NCBI GenBank assembly: GCA_902599805.1
Contig: CACKGP010000004.1
Location: 23,542-87,541 of the forward strand
Length of the DNA: 64,000 nt
From: an uncultured Pelagibacteraceae bacterium
GTDB taxonomy: Bacteria; Pseudomonadota; Alphaproteobacteria; Pelagibacterales; Pelagibacteraceae
Reading direction: 5' to 3'
This document shows positions 25,653-32,991 of the stretch, piece after piece. The notes under the pieces are model-generated. The model searched no databases and had not been told where the DNA came from. It saw only the letters and a list, made by a program, of their open reading frames with translations. A program made the position numbers and the translations under genes. The first letter of the stretch is position 1, and every line of letters starts with the position of its first letter.

Positions 25653-26555
25653 ATGACATTTAAAAAAGACCTCATAATTGGGCTTTCCAAAAAAAATAAG
25701 TCTATTCCGTCTAAATATCACTATGATTTAAAGGGAAGCAAATTTTTTGAAAAGATAACAAAACAAAAAGAATATTATCCCACAAGAAAAGAAAAGGAGA
25801 TTTTAAAAAAAATCTCTAAAGAAATACCGAAACTATTTAATAGTAAGCTATCATATGTAGAATTGGGAAGTGGAGCTATAGATAAGATAAAATTACTAAT
25901 TAATAAAGATGTCAAATATTATGTTCCACTCGATATATCCCTAGATTATGTAAAAAAGTCAGTAAAAAAACTTAAAAAGCAATATCCAAAAATTAAAATA
26001 AAACCTAAAAAAATTGATTATTCTAAGCATTTTAAAATACCCAATCTGAAAGAAACAACTAAAGTCTATTTTTTTCTAGGTTCTTCTATCGGCAATTTTC
26101 ATAATAAAGAGGAAGTTAAATTTTTAAGAAAGTTAAGAAAAAGTATAAATAAAAACAACTATTTGTTCATTGGAGTTGATCTTATTAAAAATAAACAAAT
26201 TCTTGATAAAGCATACAATGATAAAAAAGGGTATACGGCTAAATTTAGTTTAAATTTAATTAATATTATAAATAGAACACAAAAAACTAATCTGAATATT
26301 AATAATTTTTATTATCATGGGTATTACAATACTAAATTAAGATGTATTCACGGTTTTTTAGTAAGTAAAATTAATCAAAATTTTAAAATCGGTAATAAGA
26401 AATTTTTTTTAAAAAAGAGTGAGAGAATTTTAGTCGAAATTTCAAACAAATTTACTATTCAATCTTTCACAAAACTGGCTTCAAATACTGGTTGGACTAC
26501 TAAGCGAGTTTGGTTAGATAAACAAAAATATTATTCTCTATTCCTACTAAAATAG
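25653..26555 (+). CDS. EgtD-like (L-histidine Nalpha-methyltransferase family) SAM-dependent methyltransferase
   Basis: YVELGSGAIDKIKLLI, YYVPLDISLDYV, YFFLGSSIGNFHNKEE, FIGVDLIKNKQILDKAYND. Confidence 0.85.
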   Translation: MTFKKDLIIGLSKKNKSIPSKYHYDLKGSKFFEKITKQKEYYPTRKEKEILKKISKEIPKLFNSKLSYVELGSGAIDKIKLLINKDVKYYVPLDISLDYVKKSVKKLKKQYPKIKIKPKKIDYSKHFKIPNLKETTKVYFFLGSSIGNFHNKEEVKFLRKLRKSINKNNYLFIGVDLIKNKQILDKAYNDKKGYTAKFSLNLINIINRTQKTNLNINNFYYHGYYNTKLRCIHGFLVSKINQNFKIGNKKFFLKKSERILVEISNKFTIQSFTKLASNTGWTTKRVWLDKQKYYSLFLLK

Positions 26556-26579
26556 TAAGGTATGCGACGTTTTTGCCAT

Positions 26580-26615
26580 TGATAATCATTATCACTTATG
26601 TGATAACCATTCTCA
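26580..26615. promoter_or_regulatory. Fur-box-like palindromes upstream of Fe3+ ABC genes
   Basis: tgataatcattatca (26580-26594) is a perfect 15-mer palindrome about its central c; a second imperfect copy tgataaccattctca at 26601-26615. Confidence 0.7.
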
Positions 26616-26628
26616 AATGGAGAAAACT

Positions 26629-27663
26629 ATGAATAAATTAATTAGAGTAATTGGACTAGGTATTGTTGGTTTGTTTTCAACTTTACTAGTTGCAAACTCA
26701 GTTTTCGCAAATGAAGTAAACGTCTTCAGTGCGAGACATTATGATTCTGATGTTCAGCTTTATGAAAAATTCACGGCAAAAACTGGAATAAAAGTTAATG
26801 TTGTGTCTGGAAAAGATAAAGCTTTACAAAAAAGAATTAAAGAAGAAGGGAAGGACAGTAAAGCAGATATATATATAACTGCAGATGCTGGAAGATTAGG
26901 AGCTTTTCAAGCTGAAGGAATGTTTCAAAAGGGAGCAAGTTCTGCAGCGTTAAAAAAAGTTGTACCTGCTAATTTTAGATCACCTTATTGGGTTGGAATA
27001 GCAAAAAGAGCAAGAATAATTTATTACAATCCAAAAACAGTTAACCCTTCATGGAATATGAGTTATGAAGATTTAGCTGATCCTAAATACAAAGGTAGAG
27101 TAGTAATAAGAAAATCAAGCAACATTTATAATCAGTCTTTAGTTGCATCACTTATTAAAAATAATGGTGAGAAAAAAACTGCAGCATGGGCTAAAGGAAT
27201 GGTAAATAACTTTGCTAGAAAACCAACTGGTAACGACAGAGCACAGATATTAGCAGTAGCTGCTGGAGAAGCAGATTGGGCTGTAGCAAATACATATTAC
27301 TTAGCTTTAATGTTATCTGGAAAAAAAGGTGCCGAACAACAAGCGGCAGCTAAAAAAGTAATGCCTTTCTTCCCAAATCAGGACGGAAGAGGCACACATA
27401 TGAACATTAGTGGCGGTGGTATATTAAAACACGCACCAAATAAAGCTAATGCAGTTAAATTGTTAGAGTTTCTTCTAACCCCTGAAGCTCAACAGCATAT
27501 TGTTAACAATACTTTTGAGTATCCAATGATACCTGGTGTTGAGGCAAATAAATTAATTGCACAATTTGGTTTAGATTTTAAACAAGATCTAAAAACAAAA
27601 GTTTCTAATTATGGAAAACTCCAAGCTAAAGCTTTGAAAGTAATGAACGAAGCTGGCTGGTAA
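26629..27663 (+). CDS. fbpA: Fe3+ ABC transporter substrate-binding protein (FbpA/FutA type)
   Basis: Signal peptide; NEVNVFSARHYDSDVQLYEKFTAKTGIKVNV, LVQ-type ferric-binding family 'YYNPKTVNP'. ATG at 26629 preferred over 26617 because GGAG overlaps the latter. Confidence 0.92.
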   Translation: MNKLIRVIGLGIVGLFSTLLVANSVFANEVNVFSARHYDSDVQLYEKFTAKTGIKVNVVSGKDKALQKRIKEEGKDSKADIYITADAGRLGAFQAEGMFQKGASSAALKKVVPANFRSPYWVGIAKRARIIYYNPKTVNPSWNMSYEDLADPKYKGRVVIRKSSNIYNQSLVASLIKNNGEKKTAAWAKGMVNNFARKPTGNDRAQILAVAAGEADWAVANTYYLALMLSGKKGAEQQAAAKKVMPFFPNQDGRGTHMNISGGGILKHAPNKANAVKLLEFLLTPEAQQHIVNNTFEYPMIPGVEANKLIAQFGLDFKQDLKTKVSNYGKLQAKALKVMNEAGW

Positions 27664-27677
27664 TTCTATAATAGAAC

Positions 27678-27720
27678 AATTTAGTCCCTGGACTCCTCCG
27701 GGGACTAAATTTAGGAGGAG
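27678..27720 (+). promoter_or_regulatory. Intergenic stem-loop with loop complementary to the fbpB Shine-Dalgarno
   Basis: aatttagtccctgg(27678-27691)/actcct/ccggggactaaatt(27698-27711), 14 bp with one GU; CTCCTCC (27693-27699) complementary to GGAGGAG (27714-27720). Confidence 0.7.
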
Positions 27721-27722
27721 AA

Positions 27723-29339
27723 TTGATAAAGAGGATAAATTTTTGGGTTATTTTTGCTTTTTTAGTACCTTTACTGGTTGCTATACCTATATTCACAGTT
27801 TTTTTAAGTTTTTTTGATACAACAGGAAACTATTTAGATCTTTTAAAAGACACCTTTCTTTTAAAGTATTTAAGTAATTCATTTTTAATTTTATTAGGTG
27901 TATTGTCACTAACTTTTATATTTGGTGTAACCTCAGCTTATTTTGTATCTTTCTATAAATTTCCTGGTGTTAACTTTTTTAAATGGGCGTTGATATTGTC
28001 TTTTGCTGTTCCAGCTTACATTTATGCTTATTCTTTAGTTGCTTTTTTTGAAAATTATGGGACAGCATTTAGTATTTTAACTTATTTATTTGGCGAAGGA
28101 GATTATAATAAAAATATACCAAAATTTGATGGCTTAATTGGATCCATGTTTTCGATTTCTTTCTCTTTATTTGGTTACGTTTATGTTTTAACAAGAGCTT
28201 CTTTTGTATTTCAATCTCACAATCTTATAGAAGTTGGAAAAAATTTAGGTTTATCATCATATGAAAGTTTTTTTAAAATTATTTTACCATCAGCAAGACC
28301 CGCAATAGTAGTGGGGTTATCGCTTGTTGCGATGGAAACCCTGTCAGATTTTGGAACAGTAGATTTTTTTAGTATTTCAACACTAACCACAGCTATTTAC
28401 AATGCCTGGATTTCTTTTGATGATTTAACAACTGCAAATCAATTATCATTTGTTTTATTATTTTTTATCCTTCTACTATTTATTCTTGAAAATCTTTCAA
28501 GAAAAGGAGCAAAATATCATCAAAATTCAAAAGGAAACAAACCTATTCCAAAAATCCAGTTAGTCGGAGGTAAATCTATTCTTGCGACCTGTTTTTGTTC
28601 AATTTTATTTTTCTGTAGTTTTGTTTTTCCAGTTTCTCAAATGACTTATTGGACGATAAAATTTCCAAAATATTTTCAGGATATCAATTTTTGGTCACTA
28701 AATATGAATACATTGCTATTAGTATTTTTATCTAGTTTATTCTTGATCATATTTTCTTTTATGACTAATTATGGAAATAGAGTATCTAAAAATAAACTAA
28801 TTAGTTATTTATCAACTTTCTCAGTATCTGGTTATGCGTTACCAGGAATAATTTTAGCAGTTGCATTTATAACATTTATTTCGTGGTTTAGTGATTTTTT
28901 AAGTTCAATTTTTGGATTTAATAGTTTTAAGAATGTATTTATTGGATCTGTAGTTGGTCTTGTGATTGCGTATTTTGTAAGATTTTTCTCACTTTCTTAC
29001 AATGGAATTAAGTCTGGTTACTCTAAAATAAATAACTCTATTGATGAAAATGCATACCTTCTTGGATATTCTAAACTTAAAACATTCTCAACTATTCACT
29101 TACCTTATTTAAAGACTAATATATTGCTTGTTGGCGTTTTAATAGCTTTAGAAATTATTAAAGAACTTCCGATCACTTTAATATTGAGACCTTTTAATTT
29201 TGAGACTTTTGCAACTAAAGCTTATTCGTACGCCGCACAAGATTTGCTTGAGGCAGCTGCCTTTCCATCTTTATGCCTTATTATATGGGCCAGTATATTT
29301 ATATTATTTATCTCTAAATATATACTTTCTGAAAAATAA
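27723..29339 (+). CDS. fbpB: Fe3+ ABC transporter permease (fused two-domain FbpB type)
   Basis: TTG start after aggaggag; two permease halves, EAA-like GLSSYESFFKIILPSARPAIV and GYSKLKTFSTIHLPYLKTNIL. Confidence 0.92.
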   Translation: MIKRINFWVIFAFLVPLLVAIPIFTVFLSFFDTTGNYLDLLKDTFLLKYLSNSFLILLGVLSLTFIFGVTSAYFVSFYKFPGVNFFKWALILSFAVPAYIYAYSLVAFFENYGTAFSILTYLFGEGDYNKNIPKFDGLIGSMFSISFSLFGYVYVLTRASFVFQSHNLIEVGKNLGLSSYESFFKIILPSARPAIVVGLSLVAMETLSDFGTVDFFSISTLTTAIYNAWISFDDLTTANQLSFVLLFFILLLFILENLSRKGAKYHQNSKGNKPIPKIQLVGGKSILATCFCSILFFCSFVFPVSQMTYWTIKFPKYFQDINFWSLNMNTLLLVFLSSLFLIIFSFMTNYGNRVSKNKLISYLSTFSVSGYALPGIILAVAFITFISWFSDFLSSIFGFNSFKNVFIGSVVGLVIAYFVRFFSLSYNGIKSGYSKINNSIDENAYLLGYSKLKTFSTIHLPYLKTNILLVGVLIALEIIKELPITLILRPFNFETFATKAYSYAAQDLLEAAAFPSLCLIIWASIFILFISKYILSEK

Positions 29340-29356
29340 AGTTATATTACCTCTAA

Positions 29357-30427
29357 ATGAACCCAAATTTTCTTGAAATTAAAAATGCCACATTTGTTGC
29401 GAGTGAAAAAAACAAAATTAATAATGTGTCACTAACAATAAAAGAAAAAGGGGAGATTGTGTGTTTGTTAGGCCCATCTGGAGTTGGAAAGACAACTATT
29501 TTAAGAACAATTGCAGGCTTACAGGAATTAAAATCTGGGCAGATTAATTTAAAAGGAAAAACAATATCTTCTGAAAATTTTAACCTAGAACCTGAAAAAA
29601 GAAATATTGCTATGTGTTTTCAAGATAATTCCTTATTTCCTCATTTCAATGTAATGGAAAATATAAATATCGGAGCCAAAAGAAAAAATGGTTCTAAATT
29701 TAATTATTCAGATAAAGATTTAATTAAAATTCTTCACTTAGACGGTGTTCAAGAAAAATATCCTCACCAAATTAGTTCTGGTGAAGCACAAAGAGTTTCA
29801 TTAGCAAGATCTTTACTTTCTCGACCAGATTTACTCTTACTAGATGAGCCATTTGCTAATATAGACACTAGTTTGAAAGAAGAATTACAAAAGAAAATTA
29901 AAGATATTTTAAAAGAATTCAATATTACTACAATTATCGTAACTCACGATTCATACGAAGCATTCTTTATGGGTGATAAATGTGGAATACTATTAGATCA
30001 ATCACTCAAACAGTATGATGAACCGTACAATATACATCACGAACCAAATTCTCTTGAGGTTGCTAAATTTTTAAATAGAGGAGTTTTTGTTGATGTAAAA
30101 GTAGTTGAGACTGATTGTGCTGTTCATAGCTTAAGTCACCCAACTCTTGGTGAAATCAGAGGCAAACTAGTAAATAATTTTCCCGTTGGAACTACTGTTA
30201 AATTATTATTACAACCAGAGGATTTAAGGCATGATGATCAAAGTAAACTAAAATTAGAGGTTATCGACAGAAAGTTTAGAGGTACAAATTTTATTTACAC
30301 TTTAAAAACGAGCAGTGATGAAAAAATCCCGGTATTTGTCCATTCTCATCATATTCATCAACATGAGAAGTCTGAAAAATTTGGAATTAAAACTCCAATT
30401 TTCATTGACCACCTGGTATGTTTTTAA
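29357..30427 (+). CDS. fbpC: Fe3+ ABC transporter ATP-binding protein
   Basis: LLGPSGVGKTTILR, ISSGEAQRVSLARSLLSRPDLLLLDEPFANID. Confidence 0.93.
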   Translation: MNPNFLEIKNATFVASEKNKINNVSLTIKEKGEIVCLLGPSGVGKTTILRTIAGLQELKSGQINLKGKTISSENFNLEPEKRNIAMCFQDNSLFPHFNVMENINIGAKRKNGSKFNYSDKDLIKILHLDGVQEKYPHQISSGEAQRVSLARSLLSRPDLLLLDEPFANIDTSLKEELQKKIKDILKEFNITTIIVTHDSYEAFFMGDKCGILLDQSLKQYDEPYNIHHEPNSLEVAKFLNRGVFVDVKVVETDCAVHSLSHPTLGEIRGKLVNNFPVGTTVKLLLQPEDLRHDDQSKLKLEVIDRKFRGTNFIYTLKTSSDEKIPVFVHSHHIHQHEKSEKFGIKTPIFIDHLVCF

Positions 30428-30732: not shown

Positions 30733-31770
30733 ATGCTAAGAACATTAAAAGCGTTGGTTTATTTGCTTACTTCAATTGCACTATTAGTTAGTTTCGAAAC
30801 TAGTGCGTTTGCAAAAAAATCAAAAACTCTTAAGAAAACTCAGAAGATGGGTTTTGTAAGATGTGGTGTCTCTCAAGGTCTTCCGGGATTTTCTAATGCT
30901 GATGCATCAGGAAACTGGACAGGCGTTGACGTAGATCTATGTAGAGCTGTTGCAGCCGCTACTCTTGGCGATTCTGGAAAAGTTAAATTTTTTCCATTAA
31001 GCGCAAAAGAAAGATTTACAGCACTTACATCTGGTGAAATAGACGTCTTATCAAGAAATACTACTTGGACATTATCAAGAGATGCTGACATTGGTTTAAC
31101 TTTTGTTGGTGTAAACTTCTATGATGGACAAGGTTTCATGGTTAGAAAAAGTTCTGGTATTACATCTGTAAATCAATTTAAAGCAGGTGTATCAGCTTGT
31201 ACAAACTTAGGTACAACAACAGAGCTTAACATGAGGGACTTTTTTAATTCTAAAGGAATTAAATATGAGCCAGTAACTTTTGAAAAAGCTGACGAAGTCG
31301 TAGCTGCATATGATGCAGGAAGATGCGATACTTACACTACTGACAAATCTGGTCTAGCAGCTCAAAGAATTAAATTGAGCAAGCCAGATGATCATATAGT
31401 GTTACCAGAAACAATCTCTAAAGAACCATTAGGACCTGTTGTAAGACAGGGTGATGCTGTTTGGGAAGATATTGTTAGATGGTCACTAAACGTTATGATC
31501 GAAGCAGAAGAGTACGGTATTACATCTGCTAATGCTGACAGCATGAAATCTTCAGACAATCCAGCAGTAAAAAGATTAGTTGGAGCTGAAGGTGAATTAG
31601 GAGCAGCATTTGGTCTAGATAACGACTGGAGCTTAAGAATTATCAAGCAAGTTGGTAATTACGGTGAAAGCTATAAACGAAATATAGCTGATACTGGAAT
31701 TTTACCAGACAGAGGTCCAAATCAACTTTGGACTAAAGGTGGTATACTTTACGTTCCACCAGCAAGATAA
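30733..31770 (+). CDS. aapJ: General L-amino acid ABC transporter substrate-binding protein
   Basis: Signal peptide, GFVRCGVSQGLPGFSNADASGNWTGVDVDLCRAVAAATLGD, TDKSGLAAQR. Confidence 0.95.
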   Translation: MLRTLKALVYLLTSIALLVSFETSAFAKKSKTLKKTQKMGFVRCGVSQGLPGFSNADASGNWTGVDVDLCRAVAAATLGDSGKVKFFPLSAKERFTALTSGEIDVLSRNTTWTLSRDADIGLTFVGVNFYDGQGFMVRKSSGITSVNQFKAGVSACTNLGTTTELNMRDFFNSKGIKYEPVTFEKADEVVAAYDAGRCDTYTTDKSGLAAQRIKLSKPDDHIVLPETISKEPLGPVVRQGDAVWEDIVRWSLNVMIEAEEYGITSANADSMKSSDNPAVKRLVGAEGELGAAFGLDNDWSLRIIKQVGNYGESYKRNIADTGILPDRGPNQLWTKGGILYVPPAR

Positions 31771-31794
31771 TTGCTAATAATTATTACTAAAAAG

Positions 31795-31826
31795 AAAGGG
31801 CTAGATTTATCTGGCCCTTTTTTTTA
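31795..31826 (+). terminator. Intrinsic-terminator-like hairpin between aapJ and aapQ
   Basis: aaagggctaga-ttta-tctggcccttt followed by ttttt. Confidence 0.88.
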
Positions 31827-31839
31827 TACATAAGAAAAG

Positions 31840-32991
31840 ATGAATTTAAGAATTAAAAGTATTATTCCCCAATTATTAACACTGTTATTTGTGGTAGCAG
31901 TGATAGGCTTTTTCACTATTAATGCACAACTGAACATGGAAGAGAGAGGTATTGATTTCGGTTATGGATTTTTAAACCAGGAGTCATCATTCGATGTTCA
32001 ATTTTCATTGATAGAATATGATGGTTCTCATTCCTATGCAAAAGCATATTTAGTTGGATTATTAAACACTATTTTAGTTTCAGTTTTAGGTATTATTTTT
32101 TGCACTATAATTGGTGTAATTGTTGGTATAGCAAGATTGTCTCCAAATTATTTGATAAGAAATACTGCTGCTTGGTATGTTGAATTTTTTAGAAATGTTC
32201 CATTGCTGTTACAAATATTTTTCTGGTACTATGCTGCTTTAAGAGCATTACCTTTACCTGAAAATACAGAACCTCTATTTGGCGTTACTTATTTAACCGT
32301 TAAAGGTTATTATATTCCACGTTTAATTTGGGAAAATTTTGATATCTTAATTTATTCAATTTTAGCCTCGATAATCTCTATTGTTTTCATAAGAAATTAT
32401 GCGAGAAAATTACAAGAGGAAAAAGGTCAACAGCTTCCAGTTTTTTTGATTTCAGTTGGATTACTATTAATACTTCCAGCGATAACATTTATAACTGGAA
32501 TGGTTCAATTAGACGTTTCATTACCAGTTTTAAAACAATTGTCTAAAACGTCTTTTATATACGCTGAAGGTATAAGTGTCCCACCAGAATTAATAGCATT
32601 AGTATTAGCTTTATCTCTATACACTGCTACTTTTGTTGCAGAATGTGTAAGGGCAGGGATTCAAGGTATTAGCAAAGGGCAGAAAGAAGCAGCTGCCTCA
32701 GTAGGCTTAACACCTAATCAAATTCTCAAACTTGTTATAATGCCTCAAGCTTTAAGAATAATTATTCCACCAACTACCAATCAATATTTAAATTTAACCA
32801 AAAATTCATCATTAGCAGCAGCTATAGCTTATCCTGATCTTGTCTTGGTTTTTGCTGGTACTGCATTAATGCAGACTGGTAGAGCAATTGAGATAGTTTC
32901 AATAACAATGTTAACTTATTTAACCTTAAGCTTATCAATATCAATTTTAATGAATTGGTATAACAAAAAAATAGCAATTAAAGAAAAATAA
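31840..32991 (+). CDS. aapQ: General L-amino acid ABC transporter permease
   Basis: WYVEFFRNVPLLLQIFFWYYA, AGIQGISKGQKEAAASVGLTPNQILKLVIMPQALRIIIPPTTNQYLNLTKNSSLA. Confidence 0.95.
   Translation: MNLRIKSIIPQLLTLLFVVAVIGFFTINAQLNMEERGIDFGYGFLNQESSFDVQFSLIEYDGSHSYAKAYLVGLLNTILVSVLGIIFCTIIGVIVGIARLSPNYLIRNTAAWYVEFFRNVPLLLQIFFWYYAALRALPLPENTEPLFGVTYLTVKGYYIPRLIWENFDILIYSILASIISIVFIRNYARKLQEEKGQQLPVFLISVGLLLILPAITFITGMVQLDVSLPVLKQLSKTSFIYAEGISVPPELIALVLALSLYTATFVAECVRAGIQGISKGQKEAAASVGLTPNQILKLVIMPQALRIIIPPTTNQYLNLTKNSSLAAAIAYPDLVLVFAGTALMQTGRAIEIVSITMLTYLTLSLSISILMNWYNKKIAIKEK

Follow-up and report, generated by a model that had tools for sequence, protein, structure and literature searches.

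A putative loop/start-site operator between the iron-binding protein and permease genes in several SAR11 lineages

A hairpin in the 59-nt spacer between the fbpA and fbpB genes of a SAR11 bacterium has a loop that is complementary to the Shine-Dalgarno (SD) segment of the downstream permease gene, and complementarity between loop and permease start region is maintained through changes of sequence across four lineages of Pelagibacteraceae. Judged by the comparison of these spacers, the element is probably an intercistronic operator in which loop and start site pair and hold translation of the permease below that of the iron-binding protein. If this reading is true, several SAR11 lineages carry a built-in RNA brake on permease synthesis. 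SAR11 are among the most abundant heterotrophs of the ocean, and their iron operon has been put forward as a marker of iron limitation.

The DNA analysed is a stretch of 64,000 nucleotides (the window) from a SAR11 genome (Pelagibacteraceae) with an assembly of 906 kb. The closest named relatives of this genome are uncultured Pelagibacteraceae single-cell genomes.

Operon and hairpin in the window

The features of the operon are listed in Table 1. The fbpA product matches solved iron-binding proteins with E-values down to 4e-101, and the TTG start of the permease gene is backed by relatives, the N-termini of which align (MIKRINFW, MINFKKINIW, MGKKINIW). The initial annotation had mentioned a Fur-like box; upstream of fbpA there is a perfect Fur/Zur-like GATAATCATTATC, of which the 64 kb contain one exact match, and the chance expectation is about 0.8 with one mismatch allowed.

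Directly upstream of fbpA, the window has an EgtD-type L-histidine N-alpha-methyltransferase gene (25653-26555; NCBIfam TIGR03438 above cut-off), which suggests ergothioneine-type chemistry in SAR11. In many SAR11 relatives a gene for a small CxPC-motif protein, which the window lacks, lies between fbpA and the permease gene (for example L047, 4043-4246, 67 amino acids).

Table 1. Features of the iron operon and of the fbpA-fbpB spacer, in window coordinates
Feature	Position	Strand	Remark
GATAATCATTATC, perfect Fur/Zur-like box upstream of fbpA	26581-26593	+	transcriptional context
fbpA/futA-like periplasmic Fe(III)-binding protein gene	26617-27663	+	sfuC in P. ubique nomenclature
5' stem strand	27678-27691	+	AU-rich base AATTTAG, then GC-rich TCCCTGG
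Apical loop ACUCCU	27692-27697	+	
Putative anti-initiation segment CUCCUCC (loop and two stem bases)	27693-27699	+	complementary to 27714-27720
3' stem strand	27698-27711	+	
Shine-Dalgarno segment AGGAGGAG, putative target of loop	27713-27720	+	
fbpB-like ABC permease gene	27723-29339	+	TTG start, 538 aa
ATPase gene, 3' of permease gene	29357-30427		

The 14-bp hairpin of the initial annotation (AATTTAGTCCCTGG-ACTCCT-CCGGGGACTAAATT, 27678-27711) was confirmed by direct reading; the folding model gives 14-15 bp, the longer form having an additional closing A-U pair and a loop of 4 nt. The minimum free energy of the spacer is -29.1 kcal/mol (z = -3.7 against shuffled sequences, 0 of 200 shuffles being as good), and the stem is clearly more than chance. 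The complementarity ahead of the TTG-started permease also proved correct, GGAGGAG at 27714-27720 being the exact complement of CTCCTCC at 27693-27699. With the top of the stem fully closed 5 bp can form between loop and SD, and up to 7 bp if the top opens. From the full stem to the SD there are only 1-4 nt, so that in the window complete hairpin and loop/SD pairing are mutually exclusive, as had been annotated.

By shuffling, the loop/SD complementarity in the window alone is moderately improbable (p about 0.004-0.005). A hairpin scan of the window's assembly, which took in about 440 kb with the window included, placed this hairpin third of 57 strong hairpins for complementarity between loop and downstream sequence. 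Since the p-value is of this order and two other hairpins score higher downstream, the claim from the window sequence alone is weak. Among 113 hairpins from two genomes no genome-wide excess of loop/downstream matches was found, downstream, upstream and shuffled scores being about equal. It is the homologues, and not the window sequence, that carry the loop/SD claim.

Loop and start region in homologous spacers

Spacers upstream of the same permease gene were collected from about 240 loci, 147 of them distinct, and the lineages A to G were defined after seeing the data. One hairpin finder overlooked true cases (e.g. L038, L071), so that its counts are lower bounds, and a second finder overlooked others (e.g. 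L053, L067).

In the window's own genus (lineage A) 18 distinct spacers keep the hairpin, with 99% of cells paired. CUCCU and the SD are both invariant in these spacers, while the neighbouring first loop base is A, U or C. The element is single-copy: a covariance model found it at this locus only (E < 1e-17) in 21 of the 31 genomes of the genus, and no convincing further copies elsewhere in these genomes, the next matches having E > 0.05. A sister pair shifts both partners, L019 having CCTCCTCC/GGAGGAGG and L020 CCTCCTCT/AGAGGAGG; in L020 the change costs a stem pair, as G-C becomes G-U. Covariation of loop and SD in the genus amounts to this one event, because the pair hardly varies there.

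Loops matching the permease start region are found in four Pelagibacteraceae lineages (A, B, C and G) with unrelated sequences, and apart from the short paired segments these have no sequence core in common. In lineage B (L053, L054) the loop AUUCCUCUAA matches UUAGAGGAGU, which as in A is the SD, over 10 contiguous bp. Lineage C (L096, L149, L169, L216-L219, L221) has a UUACCC loop that together with its flanks matches GGGUAA(U/A) over 7-10 bp, L218 and L219 having the longest matches; the target GGGUAAU overlaps the AUG, starting at the G of the start codon, and an SD is not evident. Lineage G (L064=L127, L079, L131, L067, L068, L071, L081=L264, L085=L305) likewise has a UUACCC loop, here matching AAGGGUAA(U/A/G), likely the SD, over 7-12 bp with the longest match in L064.

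At position -1 of UUACCC in lineages C and G four pair types occur (A-U 7, U-A 3, C-G 2, U-G 2). All 14 distinct combinations are paired here, where permutation of the partners gives 6.6 on average (p = 6e-5, phylogeny ignored). The stem of lineage C covaries as well, with 5 stem pairs changed on both sides, and in its whole structure 18 cells are changed on both sides versus 6.6 after shuffling. The covariation that the initial annotation proposed to look for is thus present between loop and start region in C and G and in the stem of C; the window's own genus varies too little for this, with 0 pairs changed on both sides.

A hairpin occupies the same place in lineages D, E and F, but its loop lacks complementarity to the start region, and these lineages were rejected as members. 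The pairing is therefore not universal. It is weakened or lost in L247, L088, L220, L170 and L130, and the cultured Pelagibacter strain HTCC9565 (L084) and its lineage have no loop/start match, so that no claim is made for all SAR11. When the least favourable representative of each of the seven lineages was used, including the three without a match, Fisher's test gave p = 5e-5; the p-values ignore phylogeny and treat lineages as independent. A binding-protein tree, in which A, B, C and D but not G were placed, sets these four apart, and therefore the pairing is either ancestral with sequence turnover or has evolved repeatedly. The element would exemplify a regulatory pairing that outlasts the turnover of its sequence.

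The anti-SD idea of the initial annotation is supported, in the form of a segment directed against the initiation site in general, because the loop follows the start region as it changes between A, B, C and G; the spacer also has no matching Rfam family. The initial annotation had also held that homologues with the hairpin and no anti-SD segment would speak for a plain hairpin. Such homologues exist in D, E and F, but these are lineages of their own and differ in their start regions; within the window's genus CTCCT is kept in every distinct hairpin spacer.

Two further arrangements were seen in these spacers. In one genus (L263, L268, L280, L298, L301-L303) a near-invariant TTATAAGGCGGATTATAAT is located within the last 40 nt before the permease ATG, and the loop of the upstream hairpin, often UCUCCU, pairs poorly with it. 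In the L070 spacer, just after 3990, a hairpin is formed from TTAGAGGAGT and ATTCCTCTAA, which are the loop and SD segments of lineage B in reversed order.

Proposed mechanism and alternative explanations

In the proposed mechanism the spacer would act in cis as a translational operator. The hairpin loop would display a stretch complementary to the site where ribosomes land on the permease gene, and the two would pair, the most likely form being an H-type pseudoknot whose upper stem remains closed. With only 1-4 nt from stem to SD, this would require opening of the lowest A-U pairs in the window; linkers of about 8-12 nt in C and G perhaps make a pseudoknot feasible with the basal pairs intact. 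Pairing would mask the SD segment or the start codon. As the paired segment is one of these two, repressed initiation on the permease would be a natural consequence, and the permease would be translated at a lower level than the iron-binding protein, or conditionally with respect to it, presumably to give an excess of binding protein over permease.

The energy of the pseudoknot was estimated roughly, by a hand-made model that uses a fixed penalty together with a simple rule for linker length. On this estimate an H-type pseudoknot with the upper stem kept lies no more than about 4 kcal/mol above the best ordinary fold in any lineage, and below it in several. The initial annotation had called a pseudoknot implausible; in the crude model it becomes feasible when the A-U pairs at the base open, and the intact window stem remains incompatible with it. 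One suggestion of the initial annotation was a two-state switch between the long stem, which leaves the SD free, and a nested 7-bp loop/SD hairpin, which hides it. The trigger of such a switch would be a signal, or disturbance of the 5' arm by a ribosome or chaperone. The incompatibility of complete stem and loop/SD pairing in the window agrees with such a switch, as does a correlation of the RNA chaperones CspE and CspL with iron in P. ubique (PMC2864753). Furthermore, the nested helix is the predicted minimum in L064 and only 1.3 kcal/mol worse in L019. In the window, however, the stem is favoured over it by 10.2 kcal/mol, and in the ten computed sequences other than L019 and L064 it is about 5-17 kcal/mol above the predicted minimum, so that without active unwinding it would be essentially unpopulated at equilibrium. 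A partly opened pseudoknot accounts for the complementarity at lower cost, and we regard the switch as quite improbable.

A somewhat more serious alternative, though still an unlikely one, is a plain intercistronic hairpin with a coincidental loop/SD match, which would serve to protect fbpA mRNA at its 3' end, as has been suggested for hairpins at this kind of position in other operons. Coincidence is eased by the composition of the partners, as the SD is purine-rich and the loop may be pyrimidine-rich. The hairpins of D, E and F and the lack of a genome-wide loop/downstream excess fit this explanation, and another binding-protein/permease spacer in the window also has a hairpin (31790-31826). 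Against it, loop and start region change together elsewhere, including at the non-SD-like GGGUAAU over the start codon and with four pair types at one position, and CUCCU is invariant beside a varying loop base. The hairpin may well protect the fbpA 3' end in addition, which would be compatible with the operator. Two other explanations were considered. Released from the fbpA 3' end as an sRNA, it could act with its anti-SD loop in trans on other messages, and the CUCCUCC loop does resemble the CCUCCUCCC loops of Rhizobiales sRNAs (PMC3927594); yet there is one hairpin only, no intrinsic terminator follows it, and the C and G loops are not general anti-SD sequences but match the start region of their own neighbour, which makes action in trans very unlikely. 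A transcription attenuator or partial terminator would suit a GC-rich stem between two genes of one operon that are presumably needed unequally. A U-run is missing after the stem in A, B and C (UUUAGGAGG, UUUAUUUUAGAGG, CGUUAAAAUGG), however, and a terminator scan of 26500-27800 found no intrinsic terminator; this is the least probable of the explanations considered.

Relation to known RNAs and to the iron response

At the gathering score, Rfam (SAM-II and SAM-V included) gave only tRNAs in the window and no hit over the spacer. A permissive search of the spacers (E up to 5) returned implausible eukaryotic families only, and no description of the fbpA-fbpB spacer element was found in the literature searched. 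Its properties were compared with several kinds of RNA. A ligand-binding core as expected of a riboswitch is not shared across A, B, C and G. A site with a GC stem and U-run, as in an intrinsic terminator or attenuator, is absent from 26500-27800. A trans-acting sRNA of the CCUCCUCCC-loop kind does not agree with a single hairpin whose loop is not conserved as anti-SD across lineages. As for an SD-sequestering H-type pseudoknot, loop/start complementarity is maintained by covariation in four lineages, with four pair types at one position, and by the crude length rule stem and loop/SD pairing might fit together with basal pairs opened (window) or with the 8-12-nt linkers of G and C. From these comparisons the element would work like SD-sequestering pseudoknots but belongs to none of those tested.

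The SAM-II and SAM-V riboswitches of alphaproteobacteria and SAR11, SAM-V having been found in Pelagibacter (PMC2704228), are similar in that an H-type pseudoknot near the start of the next gene has a second helix that can include the SD, giving translational control. Unlike these, the spacer element has no conserved ligand-binding core, a much longer stem and a sequence rewritten between lineages, and its gene is an iron permease and not a methionine gene. The rpsO/S15 and alpha operon/S4 operators are also pseudoknots that embrace the start region and act on translation initiation (PMC10931766), whereas the spacer element separates two genes of a transporter operon and has no known regulatory protein. 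With the alphaproteobacterial CCUCCUCCC-loop sRNAs it shares a hairpin displaying an anti-SD loop; those act in trans and have several hairpins, while here a lone hairpin sits inside an operon, with a loop that fits the adjacent gene.

Iron limitation of P. ubique raises the sfuC, sfuB and sfuA mRNAs 16-, 10- and 5-fold and SfuC protein 27-fold, while SfuB peptides were never detected, which the authors ascribe partly to recovery of membrane proteins (PMC2864753). The same study proposes the RNA-binding CspE and CspL as post-transcriptional actors, and mentions a putative structured RNA upstream of the sfu operon from an earlier survey. The survey entry is the gap between SAR11_1239 and sfuC (PMC2704228), another place than the fbpA-fbpB spacer. 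The covarying loop/start match is a concrete, mutable candidate for the post-transcriptional layer in the lineages that carry it. More tentatively, and with considerable doubt, the spacers may represent a SAR11 class of regulatory RNA not described before, an intercistronic hairpin with a loop coevolving with the permease start. Such a class could form a conditional switch, for instance one opened by cold-shock RNA chaperones rising under iron limitation, and so give abundant binding protein and rationed permease from the same message.

Stabilising intercistronic hairpins occur between binding-protein and permease genes, as in malE-malF. The spacer element resembles these in its place directly after the binding-protein gene and in a plausible role in unequal expression, and differs in having a loop that fits the start site downstream. 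The second such spacer in the window, between a binding-protein gene at 30733-31770 and its permease starting at 31840, carries at 31790-31825 a hairpin of 16 bp and a U-run (AAAAGAAAGGGCTAGA-TTTA-TCTGGCCCTTTTTTTT) and from its sequence looks like an attenuator or partial terminator.
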